From: Brachybacterium sp. SGAir0954
GTDB taxonomy: Bacteria; Actinomycetota; Actinomycetes; Actinomycetales; Dermabacteraceae
DNA: 64,000 nucleotides
Direction of reading: 5' to 3'
Assembly (NCBI RefSeq): GCF_005490785.1
Contig: NZ_CP027295.1
Span: forward strand, 3,224,001-3,288,000
In this document: piece by piece, positions 32,341 to 44,762 of the stretch
Numbering within the stretch: the stretch's first letter is position 1
Layout: every line of letters starts with the position of its first letter
Program-made: the position numbers and the translations under genes
Notes under the pieces: generated by a model
Database searches by the model: none
Told to the model about the DNA's origin: nothing
What the model saw: the letters and a program-made list of their open reading frames with translations, nothing else

Positions 32341-35067
32341 TCAGTGCGCCCCGGGCTTGCCGGGCGTCGGGTTCGCGATGGTGAACCGGGGGGACGTGTA
32401 GGTCTCCCAGTCCGAGGGGTCCGAGGCGTCGCCGAGCGGCTTGAGCACCCGCAGCTCGAGCAGGTAGTCGCCGTTCTTGACCGACTTGGACTTCTCGTTC
32501 TTCAGCGCGTAGCTGCCGTCCCAGGCCCAGACCTCGGGGGACGCGGTGCGACCGAGGTGGTCCTCCGCGGCGACGTGGCCGACGGACGGGTTCACGATCT
32601 TCAGCTTCCCGTTCTTCTTCACCTCGTAGGCACGGACCTCGAAGCGCTCCGCCGGGTAGGCGAGGGAGTACGCGAGGTAGGGGACATCGCCGTCCTGCAT
32701 CGTGTACGTGTGGCCGCCGTCGGGATCGAGGTTCACGCTGCCCTCGCCGTCGGAGACGCCGAGCGCAGGCAGGCCGGCGCCGGCGTCGTCGAGCACGGTG
32801 AGCGCCTGGTAGTCGCCGGAGAGACCCGCGAAGGGGACCACGAGGTCCTCGTCGGTGCCGGTCAGCGTCACCCAGCCGCCGTAGATGATGCCGTCCTCGC
32901 CGAAGTCCTCGCCGAGGGTCACCTCGACGTCGGCGCTGCCGTGGGCGGGGACGGTGACGGTGCTCGCGGAGGGCTCCGCGATCCCCTCGGCGGCGTAGAA
33001 CTCCGGGTCCGAGGTCGGGGCGCCGGTGGCGACGCCGTGGCGGACGCCGACGTCGTAGGTGCGGTCCTCGTCGGCGGCGTTCGCGACCGTGATGGTCACG
33101 GTGCGGGGGCCGTCCTCGCCCTCACCGAGGGAGATCGACGGCTCCGCGACACTGGTCGTCGTATGCGCGGCGGAGACGAGGTCGAGCAGGCCCGCGCCCT
33201 GGCGGTGGACGGGCTCGAGGTAGCCCTGGTCCGGGACGAGGGACCAGGTCAGCGGGTCGGCGGTGTTCATCATCGCGGACTTGACCTGCGCCGGGGTGAG
33301 CTCCGGGGACTTCTCGAGCAGCAGCGCGGCGGCGCCCGCGACGTGCGGAGCGGCCATCGAGGTGCCGGACATGGAGCCGTGTCCGCCCTCCTCGAGCGGG
33401 AGCGTGGACCAGATGGAGCCGCCGGGGGCGGCGATGTCGGGCTTGAGCTCCAGCTCCGCGGTCAGGCCGTAGGAGGAGAAGTCGGAGACGAGGCCAGCGG
33501 TCTCGTTCTCGAGCACCGTGGTGCCCTCCTGCCAGGCCCAGGTGACCGGGCCGGCGGCGAGTGCCTCCTGGAGGGCGAGGCCGTCCGCCTGCGAGGCCAT
33601 GACCACGGGGATCGTGAGGGCGGGGTCGCCCTCGACCGTCGGCGAGAGGGAGCCGGGGGCGTTGTTGTGGAGGATCACGGCGTCGTAGCCGGCGGACTCG
33701 CCGGCGAGCGCCTTCTCGCGGAAGCTGCAGGTGCCGCGCGAGACGAGCAGCGCCTGGCCCTCGCCCGTCGCCGCGGGGACGGCGGCGGGGTCGCAGGCGA
33801 GCGCGGCGTCGGTGCCGGCCTCGCCCGCCGCGACGAGCGTGAGCTCACCGGAGGTGGGCGGGGCGACGGCGCCCTCGGCGGCCGCGTAGCCGCGGTCGGC
33901 ACCGGCGGCGGTCGCGAAGGGCGAGCGGCGGTGGGTGCTGTCCACGGAGGCGACGGTGATCGCGTCGGAGGCCACGCCCGGGGCGCCGCTCGAGAAGGTG
34001 CCGGAGGTGCCGGAGTTGCCGGCGGAGATCACGACGGTCGTGCCGGAGGCGACGAGGGAGTCGGCGAGCTGCGCCGTCGGGTAGTCCTGCCAGGTCATGA
34101 ACGAGGCGCCGAGGGACATGTTGACCACGTCGGCGCCGTCGGCCCGAGCCTGCTCCATCGCCGCGAGGATCACGTCGGTGTCGCTCGTGCCGTCGCAGCC
34201 GAAGATCCGGTACGCGAGGAGGTCCGCCTCGGGGGCCACCCCGGTGACCTCGCCGTCGGCGCCGATGATGCCGGCGACGTGCGTGCCGTGGCCGCCGCAG
34301 TCGTCGGGGTACGCATCGGGCTGCGGGGTGCTGCCCGCGGTGGAGGAGTCGTAGTCGTCGCCCACGTAGTCGTAGCCGCCGATCACGCGATCGCCGGGGA
34401 AGTCGGCGGTCTCGTCGTCCGTCCCGGCGCCGCCGAGGTCGGGGTTGTTGTAGTCGATGCCGGAGTCGATGACGGCGACCTTCACGCCGTCGCCGGTGAG
34501 GCCGTCGACCTGCTGGAGCGTGTCCGCCCCGGTCATCGCGTTGCCGTACTCGTCCTCGGGGGCGGCGTCGGCGGGCCGCGGGGCCTCGACGGCGAGCACC
34601 GGGAAGACGGCCTCGACGCCGGGGACCTGGCGGAGGGCGGCGACGTCGGCGTCGTCCATGGAGACCGACATGCCGTTCCAGCCGCCCGTGAAGGAGCGCT
34701 GCACGGTGAAGGGGACCGCGGCGGCCTCCGCCGAGTCCTCGACCTTCTTCTGGGTGGTGCGGTTGGCGCCCGCGCTGCCGCCCTGGAGGGCGGGGTCGCC
34801 GGAGACCTGCACGAGCCAGCGGCCGGGGATCGCCTCGGCGGCGCCGTCGAGGAGGTCGTCCTGGACGGGGACGCCGACGCCGAGCTCGGAGGCGGAGCCG
34901 AGGGGGTCGAGGTCCGCGGGGGCGGCGAGGGCGGCGGGGGCGGTGAGCAGCCCGGCGACGAGGGCGGCCCCGGCGGTCCCGGCGAGGAGCCCGCGGGCCC
35001 GCGGGAGGTGCCGGCGCGGGGCCGACGGCGGCGAGGAAGGAGAGGGCGGCGTGGATCTGACGGACAT
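32341..35067 (-). CDS. Secreted S8 family serine protease (subtilisin-like) with PA domain
   Basis: A 908-residue subtilase. A signal peptide ends near residue 50 (LLTAPAALAAPAD). An inhibitor I9-like propeptide follows (PGRWLVQVSG, KKVEDSAEAAAVPFTVQRSF). The triad is D201 (VIDSGIDYNNPDL), H260 (GGHGTHVAG) and S570 (GTSMAAPHVAG). The long gap between His and Ser holds a protease-associated domain with CSFREKALAGESAGYDAVILHN. After residue 620 come Fn3-like beta domains and an uncharacterised tail. No LPXTG anchor or membrane helix is seen, so it is probably released. The start at 35067 has GGAGG upstream. Confidence 0.93.
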   Translation of the reverse strand: MSVRSTPPSPSSPPSAPRRHLPRARGLLAGTAGAALVAGLLTAPAALAAPADLDPLGSASELGVGVPVQDDLLDGAAEAIPGRWLVQVSGDPALQGGSAGANRTTQKKVEDSAEAAAVPFTVQRSFTGGWNGMSVSMDDADVAALRQVPGVEAVFPVLAVEAPRPADAAPEDEYGNAMTGADTLQQVDGLTGDGVKVAVIDSGIDYNNPDLGGAGTDDETADFPGDRVIGGYDYVGDDYDSSTAGSTPQPDAYPDDCGGHGTHVAGIIGADGEVTGVAPEADLLAYRIFGCDGTSDTDVILAAMEQARADGADVVNMSLGASFMTWQDYPTAQLADSLVASGTTVVISAGNSGTSGTFSSGAPGVASDAITVASVDSTHRRSPFATAAGADRGYAAAEGAVAPPTSGELTLVAAGEAGTDAALACDPAAVPAATGEGQALLVSRGTCSFREKALAGESAGYDAVILHNNAPGSLSPTVEGDPALTIPVVMASQADGLALQEALAAGPVTWAWQEGTTVLENETAGLVSDFSSYGLTAELELKPDIAAPGGSIWSTLPLEEGGHGSMSGTSMAAPHVAGAAALLLEKSPELTPAQVKSAMMNTADPLTWSLVPDQGYLEPVHRQGAGLLDLVSAAHTTTSVAEPSISLGEGEDGPRTVTITVANAADEDRTYDVGVRHGVATGAPTSDPEFYAAEGIAEPSASTVTVPAHGSADVEVTLGEDFGEDGIIYGGWVTLTGTDEDLVVPFAGLSGDYQALTVLDDAGAGLPALGVSDGEGSVNLDPDGGHTYTMQDGDVPYLAYSLAYPAERFEVRAYEVKKNGKLKIVNPSVGHVAAEDHLGRTASPEVWAWDGSYALKNEKSKSVKNGDYLLELRVLKPLGDASDPSDWETYTSPRFTIANPTPGKPGAH

Positions 35068-35233
35068 CGAGGAGGACCTCCGGGGTGGGGACGGGCGGTG
35101 CGCCGCGCTCGCGCGCCTCCGGGACCGTTCCCGGGGCGCACCGCTGGCGGCATTCGACCATGTGCGCCGCGTCACGGGGCCGGAATCGCCCCGGAGACGC
35201 AAACCGTTATTCGGCCGTGACCGGGACGACACG

Positions 35234-39332: not shown

Positions 39333-40700
39333 TCAGAGCTTCACGGAGCGGCTGCGCCGGGCCGTCGGATCCACCGCCGCCTCGTGCCGCCGCGTGCGCG
39401 CGGACTCCACGCGCAGGCGCCACGGCGAGTACCGCTCCGCGGCGAGCGCGAGCCGGAGGCCGCCCGCGAGGGTCTGGTCCGCGGGAGTCGCGGGGAGCGC
39501 CGCGAGCGACCGGGTGAGGCGGGGCAGCTCCATCTGCGCCCCGCTCACGGCCCAGCGGGCGGCGACCTGCGCGAGCGGCGTGCGCGACTCGAGCAGCACG
39601 TGGCCCGCGCCCGGCACCTCGAGCATCGCCGCCTCCGGCATCGCCGCGGCGAGCGCACGCGAGAGGTGCGGGGGCCGCACGAGGTCCCGCTCCCCCGCGA
39701 GCACGAGCGTCGGCGTCGTGATCCCCGCGGCGAGGCGGGGCATGTCCCAGGGCTCCCCGGCGAAGGGCGGGACCCCGTGGCCCTGCGAGGCGGCGAGGCC
39801 CAGCGGGTCCAGCGGGCCGCCGTCGGCATGGTGCCCGTATCCGAGCTCGGTGTGCGCGATCGGGGCGACGAGGTCGTGCTCGTCGACGTACGGGGTGGAC
39901 TGCAGCCAGTCCTGGGCGAGCACCTGGCGCACGCTGCTCCAGGTGAGGCGGCCGCGGCCGAGTGCGAGGAGGTCCACGAGGTCGCGCACCGCGGCGGGCC
40001 CGCCGTGCTCGTGCACCGCGAGCACCACCGCTCCCGCGTGCCGGCCCTCCACCTGCCCCTCCTCCACGAGCCGCCGCAGCACCGACGCCGTGGAGGAGGT
40101 CGCCGGGACCGTCCCGTCCCAGTAGGCGGCGCGCAGCGCGTCCCGGCCCGCGGCCTCGTCGTCCGGGGTGATGAGCGGGGAGTCCAGCACCAGGGAGGCC
40201 ACGCGCTCCGGATGGTGCGCGGCGAGGGCGAGCGCGAGATGGCCGCCGTAGCCGGCGCCGTAGACGGCCGCCTCCGGCACGTGCGCGTGGTCGAGGACGG
40301 CGACGAGATCCGCGAGCACCTCCGTCAGGCGCATGCCGTGGCGCGGCAGGTCGCGGCCCGCGCCGTCCTGCCGCGAGAGCCCCACCCCGCGGTGCTCCAT
40401 CATGATGACGTCCATGCCGCGGTCGCTGAGGGTGCGGCGCAGGCGGTCGTAGGGCAGCACCGAGGCGCGGCCGGGCCCGTCGGGGATCAGCAGCAGCGGC
40501 ACCTGCGGGGCGGCGACCCCGGCGCGGCGCGCAGCCTCGAGGTCCTGCGGCCGCGGATGGCGCGGCGTGCGCCGGGCGTACCGCAGCGGGAACAGCCGCG
40601 GGTCCTTCCCCGAGATCTCCCGCAGCACCGTCATGACGTCCCCGCGCAGCAGCAGCAGGTCGTCCTGCGCGGAGCGCTCGAAGAGGTCGACGGACCTCAC
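39333..40700 (-). CDS. Alpha/beta hydrolase-fold protein (S33-like) lacking the nucleophile
   Basis: A 455-residue protein with the layout of prolyl aminopeptidase-type (S33) hydrolases: VPLLLIPDGPGRAS, MMEHRGVGLSRQ (oxyanion region), acid segment LVLAGERDLVRPP and base segment PGAGHVLLES. The nucleophile elbow, normally G-x-S-x-G, reads YGAGYGGH, so Gly150 stands where Ser is required; the codon is GGC. It is therefore likely inactive as a peptidase or has another role. The start is a GTG overlapping the prolyl oligopeptidase stop (GTGA), so the two are coupled. Confidence 0.8.
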   Translation of the reverse strand: MRSVDLFERSAQDDLLLLRGDVMTVLREISGKDPRLFPLRYARRTPRHPRPQDLEAARRAGVAAPQVPLLLIPDGPGRASVLPYDRLRRTLSDRGMDVIMMEHRGVGLSRQDGAGRDLPRHGMRLTEVLADLVAVLDHAHVPEAAVYGAGYGGHLALALAAHHPERVASLVLDSPLITPDDEAAGRDALRAAYWDGTVPATSSTASVLRRLVEEGQVEGRHAGAVVLAVHEHGGPAAVRDLVDLLALGRGRLTWSSVRQVLAQDWLQSTPYVDEHDLVAPIAHTELGYGHHADGGPLDPLGLAASQGHGVPPFAGEPWDMPRLAAGITTPTLVLAGERDLVRPPHLSRALAAAMPEAAMLEVPGAGHVLLESRTPLAQVAARWAVSGAQMELPRLTRSLAALPATPADQTLAGGLRLALAAERYSPWRLRVESARTRRHEAAVDPTARRSRSVKL

Positions 40701-42859
40701 GCGGTGCGCTCGTCCCGCCCGATCGTGCTCCACAGAAAGCTGTAGAGCAGGGCGTTCATCCGTGCGGCCTGCTCGTTCGTGGCCGCGCCGCCGTGTCCTC
40801 CCTCGATGTTCTCGAAGGAGCGGACGTCCGCCCCGAGGGACTCGAGCGCCGCCGTGAGCTTGCGCGCGTGCCCGGGGTGCACGCGGTCGTCCCGGGTCGA
40901 GGTGAGCACGAAGGACGGCGGGTAGTCGACCCCCTCCGCGAGCAGGTGGTACGGGCTGAAGGTGCGCACGAACTCCCAGTCCTCGGTGTCCGGGTCGCCG
41001 TACTCGGCCATCCAGGAGGCGCCCGCGAGCAGGTGCGAGTAGCGCTTCATGTCCAGCAGCGGCACCTGGATCACCGCGGCGCCGATCAGCTCGGGGTAGC
41101 GGGTGAGCATGTTGCCGGTGAGCAGCCCGCCGTTGGAGCCGCCGCGCACCGCGAGGTGCTCGCGGTCCGTGACACCGCGCTCCACGAGGTCCTGCGCGAC
41201 GGCGGCGAAGTCCTCGTAGGCGCGGTGGCGGTGCTCGGTGAGCGCCGCCTGGTGCCAGCGGGGGCCGTACTCGCCGCCGCCGCGGATGTTCGCGATGACG
41301 TAGCGGCCGCCGCGCTCGATCCAGGCCTTCCCGATCGGGCCGAGGTAGCTCGGGGTCAGGGAGATCTCGAAGCCGCCGTAGCCGTAGAGCAGGGTGGGCA
41401 CGGGGGTGCCGGCCTCGGCGGCCTCCTCGGCGCCGCGCGGCGAGATCTCGAAGTACGGCACGCGGGTGCCGTCCTCGCTCGTCGTGAAGTGCTGGGTGAC
41501 GTCCATGCCCTCCGCGTCGAAGCGGGCCGGGGCGCGCTTGATCGTCTCGAGCTCGCCGGGGGCGCCGCCATGGGGCACCTCGGAGAGGTCGCCGAGCAGC
41601 AGGGTCGTGGGCTCCACGAAGTCGGTGACGGTGAGCCAGACGCGGTCGTCCTCGTCCGCGTCGAAGGCGGCGACGCCGAGCGCTCCGCGCAGCTCGGGGT
41701 AGAGGTCCTGGCTGACCCACGCGCCGTCCTCGTCGCGGTGGTGGACCTCGAGCCGGTGCACGACGTCCTCGAGGATCGAGAGCACGATCGTGCTGCGGGT
41801 GATGGTCATGCCGTCGAGGGAGGTGGAGTCCGTGGGCTCGAAGAGCAGGTGGAGGTCCGGCTCCCCGTCGAGGAAGGAGGCGAAGTCGCCGACCACGAGG
41901 GAGCCGGCGGGGAACACCTGCTCCCCCACGGTCCAGTCGCTGCGCGGGGAGAAGACGCCGAGGTCGCGGTGGGCGTTCGCCTCGAGGTCCCGCGGCACGT
42001 CGATCGTCGTGAGCCGCACGCCGTCCTCGGTCCCGATCCCCTCGACGAGGTGGAGGGTCTGGTCGTAGAACGCGTGGGCCTGCAGCACCCAGTCGCGCTC
42101 CCAGCCGGGGGTGGAGTCGTGGGAGGCGAAGGCCGCGAGGTCGGACTCCGCGGCCTCGAGCACGAGCTCCGCCTCGGCGAGCGGGGTGCCGCGGCGCCAG
42201 ATCCGCGCCTGCCGGGCGTACCCGGAGCTCGTGAGCGTGCCCTCGCCGAAGTCCGTGCAGGCCCACACGGTGTCCTCGTCGATCCAGGCGAGGCTGCCCT
42301 TCGCCTCGGGGCGCTCGAAGCCGCCCTCGGCGGCGGGCACGAAGGTGAGGGTCTCGAGGTCGAACTCGCGGGTCGTGTCCGCGTCGGAGCCGCCGTGGGA
42401 GAGGTCCACGAGGGCGCGCCGGTACGGCTGCCCGGGGGCGGGACGCAGCAGGCGGGCGCCGTGCCACACCCAGTCCTCGCCCTCGGCCTCGTTGAGCGCG
42501 TCGACGTCGATCAGCACCTCCCATTCGGGCTCCTCGGTGCGGTAGGACTCGAGCGTCGTGCGGCGCCACAGGCCGCGCTCGTGCTCGGCGTCGGTCCACA
42601 CGTTGTAGAGGTAGCCGCCACGGTGGGTGACGCCGGGGATGCGGTCGCTCGCGTCGAGGATCTCGAGGATCTCCCGCTGGAGGGTCGCGGCGAGCGGCGC
42701 GCCGTCCGGGCCGGTGACCGCGTCGAGCTCCGCCTCGGCGCGCGCGTTGTGCTCGCGCACCCAGTCCAGGGCCTTCTCGCCGGTGACGTCCTCGAGCCAC
42801 AGGTGCGGGTCGGAGGAGCCGTCCGGCGCGGGCAGGGACGGGGTGGGGGTGGTGCTCAT
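40697..42859 (-). CDS. Prolyl oligopeptidase family serine peptidase (S9A)
   Basis: A 720-residue cytoplasmic peptidase with no signal sequence. The N-terminal seven-bladed propeller covers about residues 75-430; SDPHLWLEDVTGEKALDWVREHN leads in. The catalytic domain holds Ser575 in GGSNGG, an Asp in STRDDRVHP and His in EGGHGG. IRGGGEYGPRWHQAALTEHR is a signature of the family. Expected to cut short peptides after Pro. A CAGGAG site supports the start, which overlaps the upstream gene stop (ATGA). Confidence 0.94.
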   Translation of the reverse strand: MSTTPTPSLPAPDGSSDPHLWLEDVTGEKALDWVREHNARAEAELDAVTGPDGAPLAATLQREILEILDASDRIPGVTHRGGYLYNVWTDAEHERGLWRRTTLESYRTEEPEWEVLIDVDALNEAEGEDWVWHGARLLRPAPGQPYRRALVDLSHGGSDADTTREFDLETLTFVPAAEGGFERPEAKGSLAWIDEDTVWACTDFGEGTLTSSGYARQARIWRRGTPLAEAELVLEAAESDLAAFASHDSTPGWERDWVLQAHAFYDQTLHLVEGIGTEDGVRLTTIDVPRDLEANAHRDLGVFSPRSDWTVGEQVFPAGSLVVGDFASFLDGEPDLHLLFEPTDSTSLDGMTITRSTIVLSILEDVVHRLEVHHRDEDGAWVSQDLYPELRGALGVAAFDADEDDRVWLTVTDFVEPTTLLLGDLSEVPHGGAPGELETIKRAPARFDAEGMDVTQHFTTSEDGTRVPYFEISPRGAEEAAEAGTPVPTLLYGYGGFEISLTPSYLGPIGKAWIERGGRYVIANIRGGGEYGPRWHQAALTEHRHRAYEDFAAVAQDLVERGVTDREHLAVRGGSNGGLLTGNMLTRYPELIGAAVIQVPLLDMKRYSHLLAGASWMAEYGDPDTEDWEFVRTFSPYHLLAEGVDYPPSFVLTSTRDDRVHPGHARKLTAALESLGADVRSFENIEGGHGGAATNEQAARMNALLYSFLWSTIGRDERTA

Positions 42860-43467
42860 CGCTGCTCCTGCGTGGTGTCCGTGGTGGTGTCGAGGCTGTC
42901 GGTGAAGTCGGTGAGGGTCTGCTTCCAGGCGGCCTTCCAGGCCTCACGCTGGTCGGCGTCCTCCATACCCTTGTGGGCGACGGCGAGGGTGCAGCGGGGG
43001 CGGCCGCCCTGCTCGTCCTTGGCGCAGATGCTGATCGAGGCGCGCGACCCGTCGAGCCCGGAGGCGCGCCAGTATCGCCAGCGCGCGGTCTCGCTGATCG
43101 CGGGCTCCTCGAGCCGGAGGTCCTCGCGGCGCTCGGGGGTCATGAAGGCGCTCCACGCGGCGAGCACCGCGTCCCTGTCCCCGGGGACGGTGCGGGAGGC
43201 GGAGACGGCGAAGTCGCCCTCGCAGGTCTGCCCCACGACGCGCAGCCCCACGGCCTGCTCGTAGGCGACGGTCACGCCCTGCGCCCACCACTCCTCGACG
43301 CCGTGGCGGTCCACGAGCAGCCGGGCGATCTCCCGGTGGCCCAGCTCGCGCGCGCCGGCGGCGTCCAGGCGCGCGGTCCACTCGGCGAGCGGGGTGCCGG
43401 TGGCGCGCTCGATCGCGGCGGCCTGGGCGTGCTCCTGCGGGGGGATCGTGACGGGGAGGTCCTGCAT
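42856..43467 (-). CDS. DUF4287/AHSA1-like protein
   Basis: A 203-residue protein. The N-terminal 75 residues (IERATGTPLAEW, ARELGHREIARLLVDRHGVEEWWAQGVTVAYEQ) resemble a helical module often placed before SRPBCC or AHSA1 domains in actinobacteria. The C-terminal half has an AHSA1-like ending (SRASISICAKDEQG, TLAVAHKGMEDADQREAWKAAWKQTLTDF). The function is unknown; the fold suggests ligand or client binding. First gene of a coupled operon with the prolyl oligopeptidase and the altered hydrolase. Confidence 0.7.
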   Translation of the reverse strand: MQDLPVTIPPQEHAQAAAIERATGTPLAEWTARLDAAGARELGHREIARLLVDRHGVEEWWAQGVTVAYEQAVGLRVVGQTCEGDFAVSASRTVPGDRDAVLAAWSAFMTPERREDLRLEEPAISETARWRYWRASGLDGSRASISICAKDEQGGRPRCTLAVAHKGMEDADQREAWKAAWKQTLTDFTDSLDTTTDTTQEQR

Positions 43468-43479: not shown

Positions 43480-43529
43480 CGGTCCCGCCCGTGTCCCCGG
43501 TCACGGGGAGCCGTGGAACACTCGAGGTC

Positions 43530-44762
43530 ATGTCCTCCCTCCCCCGCCGCCGTGCCCTCGCCCTCGCGCTCTCCCTGCCGCCCGCCCTCGCCGCGTGCAC
43601 CGCGGGCGGCGGCTCCGACGGAACCGCCGACGGCGGGACGTCCGACGGGGGCGTCTCCGACGGCTCCGCGTCCGACGGCGGCGGCGCCTCGGACGGCGCG
43701 GCCACCACGGAGCCCACGGCCCCCGCCCCGCCGAGCGCCGCGGAGCTGCTGCTCGAGGACCTCTCCGAGGACGACCTCGCCGCCCAGCTCGTCATGGTGG
43801 GCGTGCGCACGGGCACCTCGATCGACCCGGAGCTGCTCGAGGAGCATCCCGTGGGCGGCTTCTTCCTGCTCGGCGTGTGGGAGTCCGCCGACGCCGTGGA
43901 CGAGGTCGTCGACGCCGCCCTCGACGGCGGCCGCGAGGACCTCCCCCCGCTGCTCGCCGTGGACCAGGAGGGCGGGCAGGTGCGCATGCTGCGCGGGAGC
44001 GCCGCCCGTCGCACCTCCTCCGCCGCCCGGCTCGGCGAGGAGGGGGCGGCGGCGGTCACGGAGGCCTACACGAGCATCGGCGAGGACCTCGCCGCGCGCC
44101 GCATCCCGCTGGCCCTCTCCCCCGTCGCGGACGTCGTCGACCCCGAGCTCGGCGAGGACAACGGGCCCGTCGGCGCGCTGGACCGCGGCTTCGGCACGGA
44201 CCCGGAGCAGGTGGGCGCGTGCGTGCGCGCGGCCGTCGAGGCGCTCGACGCGCAGGGGGTGGGCGCCTCCCTCAAGCACTTCCCGGGCCTGGGCCGGGTG
44301 CGGGAGAACACCGACTTCTCCGCCGAGGGCATCGAGGACACCACCACGAGCGCGGAGGACCAGTTCCTCGACTCCTTCGCGGAGGGCATCGCGGCCGGCG
44401 CGGACGCCGTCATGCTCGCCTCCGCCGTCTACCCGCGGATCGACCCGGACAACGCCGCGATGTTCTCCTCCGCCGTGGTGACGGACCTGCTGCGGGGGAC
44501 CCTCGGCTTCGACGGCCTCGTGGTCACCGACGACATCGGCGCCGCGAAGGCCGTCGCGGACGTCCCCGTCGCGGAGCGCGCGACCCGCCTGCTGGCCGCG
44601 GGCGGCGACGTCGTCCTCACCGCGGACCCGTCGATCGCCGCCGAGCTCGCGGAGGCGATCGCCGCCTGGGCGCAGGAGTCGCCCGAGCAGGCGGCCCGGG
44701 TGCGGGAGGCAGCGGGACGGATGCTCGCGCTCAAGGAGAAGCGGGGGCTGCTCGGCTCCTGA
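43530..44762 (+). CDS. GH3 family lipoprotein (NagZ-like beta-N-acetylglucosaminidase candidate)
   Basis: A 410-residue lipoprotein. The signal peptide has RRR and a lipobox LAAC with Cys23, followed by a Gly/Ser/Asp-rich linker to residue 65. The catalytic domain is glycoside hydrolase family 3: LLAVDQEGGQVRMLRG, LKHFPGLGRVRENTDFS and, with the nucleophile Asp, FDGLVVTDDIGAAKAV. The KHFPGLGRV form without the DSH motif of cytoplasmic NagZ is found in secreted actinobacterial members. Likely substrate is a peptidoglycan-derived glycan, by family inference. The start at 43530 follows a GAGGTC site. Confidence 0.88.
   Translation: MSSLPRRRALALALSLPPALAACTAGGGSDGTADGGTSDGGVSDGSASDGGGASDGAATTEPTAPAPPSAAELLLEDLSEDDLAAQLVMVGVRTGTSIDPELLEEHPVGGFFLLGVWESADAVDEVVDAALDGGREDLPPLLAVDQEGGQVRMLRGSAARRTSSAARLGEEGAAAVTEAYTSIGEDLAARRIPLALSPVADVVDPELGEDNGPVGALDRGFGTDPEQVGACVRAAVEALDAQGVGASLKHFPGLGRVRENTDFSAEGIEDTTTSAEDQFLDSFAEGIAAGADAVMLASAVYPRIDPDNAAMFSSAVVTDLLRGTLGFDGLVVTDDIGAAKAVADVPVAERATRLLAAGGDVVLTADPSIAAELAEAIAAWAQESPEQAARVREAAGRMLALKEKRGLLGS

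Follow-up and report, generated by a model that had tools for sequence, protein, structure and literature searches.

Reciprocal exchange of aspartate and glycine between the oxyanion loop and the nucleophile elbow suggests a rebuilt active site in a hydrolase encoded beside a prolyl oligopeptidase in Brachybacterium

The window, by which we mean the whole 64,000-nucleotide stretch of Brachybacterium sp. SGAir0954 DNA that was analysed, carries three genes that run one into the next on its minus strand:

42856..43467, minus strand: gene 1, 203 aa, described from its translation, Pfam and its predicted fold
40697..42859, minus strand: gene 2 (S9), 720 aa, sharing a 4-bp ATGA overlap with gene 1
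39333..40700, minus strand: gene 3 (the hydrolase, HYD), 455 aa, with a GTG start and a 4-bp GTGA overlap with gene 2

The spacing is -4 bp at both junctions, gene 1/gene 2 and gene 2/gene 3, as had been noted in an earlier reading of the letters alone (the sequence-only reading), whose coordinates and reading frames are correct. That reading also called gene 1 AHSA1-like, a description that stands for the predicted fold of the C-terminal part and falls for the sequence family, where the only signal is a DUF4287-like stretch (residues 16-64) that scores 25.1 bits, below the Pfam cut-off of 27; none of 17 members has a Pfam match to an AHSA1/SRPBCC family at E 0.01. In the predicted structure (mean pLDDT 93.1; 17 sequences), residues 79-200 resemble the AHSA1 protein 3eli (Z 11.3, rmsd 2.3, 101 aligned), and the model matches 3q63 at Z 11.4. 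As modelled, then, the C-terminal part (79-200) has an AHSA1/SRPBCC fold; we claim the fold and not the family. A family-3 glycoside-hydrolase-like gene, recognised by eye at 43491-44762 on the plus strand, starts approximately 25-60 bp from gene 1 and is oriented divergently, so the promoter region that the two share is very short. A large subtilisin-like protease at 32341-35232 on the minus strand was likewise identified by eye, on the strength of a GTSMAAPHVAG motif.

Gene 2 is a predicted S9 prolyl-oligopeptidase-type peptidase with intact catalytic motifs. It matches PF00326 (E 5.5e-40) together with PF02897, which indicates a beta-propeller and a catalytic domain, its best solved relative is 4hvt (E 1.4e-94), and Ser575, Asp657/658 and His689 are present in 34/34 orthologues; its original identification as a prolyl oligopeptidase is borne out.

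Gene 3 is an S33-like alpha/beta-hydrolase of the proline-iminopeptidase type, in an Asp74/Gly150 form. Its Pfam matches are PF00561 (Abhydrolase_1, E 3.9e-21) and PF12146 (Hydrolase_4, S33, E 1.3e-15), and its predicted model (mean pLDDT 91.9; 79 sequences) finds tricorn factor F1, 1mtz, at the top of the solved-fold matches listed (Z 23.5, rmsd 4.2, 269 aligned). The closest solved folds among the matches listed are enzymes, where entries within 1 Z of each other count as tied. Four codons define what has become of the active site; the counts refer to the proteins of the genus:

40479..40481, minus strand: codon 74 (GAC, Asp), within PDGPG; in GGPG, the motif of the oxyanion loop, this position is the first Gly
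40251..40253, minus strand: codon 150 (GGC, Gly), in the nucleophile elbow G-A-G-Y-G-G
39684..39686, minus strand: codon 339 (Asp), catalytic acid position, Asp in 32/34 and Asn in 2/34
39600..39602, minus strand: codon 367 (His), catalytic base position, His in 34/34

Here GGPG is the usual name of the S33 oxyanion-loop motif, of which all 58 Ser-type homologues described below have G74. The two carriers of Asn339 are sister species. The protein has the fold, the sequence family, the histidine and the acid of an active S33 serine aminopeptidase and lacks the elbow serine and the GGPG motif. Asp at the elbow, the mark of an Asp-nucleophile hydrolase, is absent from the window protein (Gly150), and the loss of a conserved catalytic residue, the mark of a pseudoenzyme, is present, in that the serine is gone while base and acid remain. 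The sequence-only reading was right that codon 150 reads GGC in the nucleophile position and that the S33 acid and base, Asp339 and His367, are kept.

The missing serine is a property of the genus. Gene 3 was found in 37 of the 38 Brachybacterium genomes searched, and the elbow serine is lacking from all 37: in 35 of them the protein has Asp74/Gly150, and in two it has the reverse, Gly74/Asp150. An alignment of homologues, which had been proposed as a check on the glycine, thus finds it conserved (35/37) in company with a partner change at position 74. Once 22 duplicate loci were removed, 97 distinct homologues fell into four classes: G74/S150 (58), D74/G150 (35), G74/D150 (2) and G74/G150 (2). 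The combinations D74/S150, D74/D150 and G74/G150 with His were found neither among the 97 homologues nor among the class-level loci. Twenty of 20 class-level relatives, some of them shared with the 97, are G74/S150, as are the first six paralogues fetched (L031-L036; five from genomes of the genus and one from another family), which are 37-42% identical to the query. The pairing of sites 74 and 150 seen among the 97 also holds in G058 and in three genomes of Dermabacter. In these alignments, the loss of Ser150 to Gly is tied to the gain of Asp at Gly74, a partner change absent from the sequence-only reading. His367 is retained wherever position 74 or 150 has a carboxylate and the stretch is readable; the sequence from G059 (L087/L159) ends before His367. 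The frame-broken L041/L098, from an 85%-complete assembly (G022), was excluded from the 34-protein set and from the 97; its fragments do enter the count over 37 genomes. Both its hydrolase and S9 genes are disrupted by apparent frameshifts, and the pieces give Asp74 and Gly150.

The claim that gene 3 has no nucleophilic serine would fail if another serine had taken over the role, and no replacement was found. The residue at position 149 is not constant (V, S, T, C, A); Ser80, Ser109 and Ser174 show the same degree of conservation in the Ser-type relatives; and the Ser-type orthologues L092 and L095 share Ser256. No new invariant active-site serine has been gained in the proteins of the genus. 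The description of gene 3 as a nucleophile-less pseudoenzyme therefore holds as far as the genus-wide absence of Ser150 is concerned, but it is too simple, in that the same proteins have gained Asp74 or carry Asp at 150.

To follow the history of the exchange, we built trees with sites 74 and 150 omitted and, in the family-wide tree, with four near-identical rows left out. The two reversed proteins fall in different clades, L040 with L037/L050 (support 95/68) and L054 inside a clade of 21 rows (99/97). Among 166 columns that are near-invariant in the 34 genus proteins, 74 and 150 are the only ones that deviate in both. The Dermabacter D74/G150 proteins (L093, L094) adjoin the Ser-type proteins L095 (100/98) and L092 (100/100), and a single non-Ser clade of Dermabacter and Brachybacterium, a group picked after inspection of the tree, is rejected (log likelihood lower by 86.7, p-AU 1.15e-14). 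It follows that the Asp/Gly pair either evolved in parallel or gave way to a regained serine. The tree requires a minimum of five changes at site 150, and by hand count parallel loss and regain tie at that number; we favour parallel loss, since regain requires two coordinated reversions. There are at least three lineages without the serine, one of which (L096/L097) lacks the histidine as well. Both reversed proteins (L054 and L040; the same sequences recur as L074 and L091) and the Ser-type Dermabacter L095 come from metagenome-assembled genomes, and the Ser-type Helcobacillus protein L092 comes from an isolate.

Could the exchange be no more than drift? Ser150 might have been lost from a dispensable enzyme and Asp74 might have refilled the cavity, a neutral or steric compensation with no special function. 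In favour of this account, a single base substitution between the most frequent codons (GAC/GGC) is enough for each exchange, and several lineages have lost the serine. It is nevertheless very improbable in our estimation: gene 3 has been kept in all but one of the genomes of the genus, the residues of the pocket are conserved, and dN/dS lies well below 1 in all 13 pairs compared (0.06-0.22; the S9 genes of these pairs give 0.15-0.27). Gene 3 is under purifying selection. These values, with the open reading frames, also rule out reading gene 3 as a pseudogene.

The neighbourhood bears on whether the hydrolase has a partner. Relatives were sought by a contig scan that took the best 80 of 232 matches, and among these the S9 gene adjoins the hydrolase in 29/29 Dermabacteraceae loci and in 0/50 non-family relatives; it stands beside 0/6 paralogues. 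The linkage is family-specific, and it persists in Brachybacterium, Dermabacter, Helcobacillus and the TAE3-ERU lineage. The distance between the two genes is far less constant. Of 34 relatives, 12 have an S9-hydrolase junction that overlaps by 4 or 1 bp and 7 have a gap of 11 to 52 bp; the gap widens to 169-186 bp in 2 and to 634-721 bp in 13. Gene 1 is missing beside 9 of the 34. The overlaps had been taken to imply fixed stoichiometry, and this does not survive the comparison: with overlapping junctions in 12/34 and a gap of 634 bp or more in 13/34, a stoichiometry fixed by translational coupling is rejected, and with it falls the stoichiometric argument for a possible regulatory subunit. 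Also rejected is an obligate three-gene module, since gene 1 may be absent and the S9 gene is kept in two genomes of the same family, G064 and G066, that have no match to gene 3 at E 1e-30. After S9, these genomes (L180, L181) have instead an MFS-type and a LysE-type gene, recognised by eye.

Two accounts of gene 3 draw on these facts. One is that the genes share an operon without any functional link and that the hydrolase works alone, which would be compatible with chemistry at a rebuilt centre. The variable spacing, the long gaps and the absences of gene 1 suit it; the retention of the S9 neighbour across four lineages of the family, and its complete absence beside the 50 non-family relatives among the best 80 of 232 matches, do not, and we think it improbable. 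The other is that a former S33 peptidase, once active together with the S9 enzyme in the way that F1 teams with tricorn, is now a non-catalytic pseudoenzyme whose remaining role is to bind the S9 enzyme or peptides that are its substrates, the Asp-His pair being a structural repair that supplies a salt bridge and makes up the volume of the lost serine. We take this seriously, although on balance we doubt it. The family-specific linkage (29/29 versus 0/50, on the same best 80 of 232 matches) and the purifying selection on gene 3 are what a partner would show. Nonenzymatic alpha/beta-hydrolase proteins exist, the neuroligins and NDRG being examples (PMC7022630). The loss of serine in at least three lineages also speaks for a partner, and the lineage that lost the histidine too fits this account better than retained chemistry. 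On the other side, His367 in 34/34 proteins and one carboxylate in 37/37 genomes of the genus exceed what a scaffold should require, the spacing between the two genes varies, with a long gap in 13/34, and S9 persists without gene 3 in two genera of the family. The proteins without histidine are TAE3-ERU Dermabacteraceae orthologues encoded beside S9 (L096:4983-6296 and L097:4983-6296); both of these G74/G150 homologues have Phe instead of His367, a fuller loss of the triad.

We turn to what the exchange may mean for the active site. In the predicted model, positions 150 and 74 lie at the ends of strands 144-149 and 69-72. In alpha/beta-hydrolases the nucleophile zone is made up of the strand ends of beta5 and beta3 (PMC7034887), so positions 74 and 150 should adjoin. 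Since the side chains at the two positions are mutually exclusive, the pattern suggests one shared slot, to be filled by Ser150, Asp150 or Asp74, and each protein would carry one such side chain alone, at 74 or at 150. The covariation further implies that a carboxylate may lie beside the catalytic His367: the Asp would sit where the Ser that was lost had its side chain, and Asp74-His367-Asp339 would make up an Asp-His-Asp centre such as occurs in epoxide hydrolases or in enzymes with an Asp/Glu-His dyad. A centre of this sort would probably still bind and turn over a ligand, with Asp as the nucleophile or with Asp and His as an acid-base pair, its substrates being small molecules or peptide products met in the pathway that the S9 enzyme serves, and the product of gene 3 would no longer be a serine peptidase. 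In other words, the reciprocal exchange suggests an active site that was rebuilt and not simply switched off. We propose, with a confidence that stops just short of even, that the site is rebuilt around a relocated carboxylate and likely still performs chemistry or binds a specific ligand. Five points weigh against a rebuilt centre: (i) Asp339 is replaced by Asn in the two sister species; (ii) L096 and L097 stand beside S9 with neither a carboxylate at 74 or 150 nor the histidine, and a non-catalytic role is possible for them; (iii) a buried Asp-His salt bridge that stabilises the fold would yield the same covariation; (iv) metagenome-assembled genomes are the source of both reversed proteins and of the Dermabacter protein of Ser type; and (v) by hand count a return to serine is equally parsimonious at site 150.

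Several known systems help to place a rebuilt centre. F1, a small enzyme of family S33, acts alongside tricorn, a large peptidase with a beta-propeller. Its residue G37 presumably sits in the GGPG loop. A G37A mutant of F1 is called inactive in the title of PDB entry 1xqv. F1/proline iminopeptidase (S33; 1mtz, 3nwo) provides the best structural match of gene 3; F1 has a Ser nucleophile, whereas gene 3 has Gly in place of that Ser and Asp in place of the oxyanion-loop Gly. Epoxide hydrolases use a D-D/E-H triad, and some alpha/beta-hydrolases function with a D/E-H dyad and no Ser, as set out in a superfamily survey (PMC11878206). Epoxide hydrolases and haloalkane dehalogenases have a like set of Asp-His-Asp/Glu residues, and the Asp of the reversed orthologues stands exactly at their elbow position; in the window protein the Asp lies on the oxyanion loop and not at the elbow, and an activity of their kind would be putative. 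The carboxy-lyase-type D/E-H dyad enzymes and CGI-58/ABHD5, the latter also a lipase cofactor, work without Ser, but a relocated Asp is not described for them there (PMC11878206). Neuroligin, thyroglobulin and NDRG2/3 have substituted catalytic residues and a retained fold; in NDRG3 the whole triad is gone, whereas gene 3 keeps base and acid and gains a carboxylate (PMC7022630). A parallel comes from another fold. The kinases WNK1 and POMK, apparent pseudoenzymes, have moved an essential catalytic lysine to a neighbouring strand (PMC10211241); activity is proven in those kinases and proposed here.

The most specific form of our proposal is that the nucleophile itself has left the elbow, with Asp74 replacing Ser150 in an active Asp74-His367-Asp339 centre that evolved in the two genera Brachybacterium and Dermabacter in parallel, the Asp having moved between loop and elbow in two more lineages. 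We judge this unlikely. According to the superfamily survey (PMC11878206), the serine never leaves the elbow, and it is the acid that can shift, from beta7 to beta6; the relocation of a carboxylate proposed for gene 3 would depart from that scheme. In our searches of open-licence PMC papers we found no report of an Asp/Gly exchange between oxyanion loop and elbow, nor of an S9/hydrolase operon of this kind. If true, a carboxylate that switches between the elbow and the oxyanion loop, each state being represented among close relatives, would constitute a natural experiment on the rewiring of a triad and on when an enzyme that looks "dead" is in fact alive. The question of Ser-type versus Asp-type is directly testable with the orthologues L095 (Ser-type) and L093 (Asp-type), which are 67% identical.

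The long gaps between S9 and the hydrolase may hold a further clue. The 13 loci concerned (L037, L041, L044, L052-L055, L058, L061-L063, L066 and L067) contain similar plus-strand open frames inside the gap, and the one that was scanned, from L061, encodes a mycothiol-S-transferase (PF04978, 128.8 bits), so that electrophile detoxification could point to the class of substrate.
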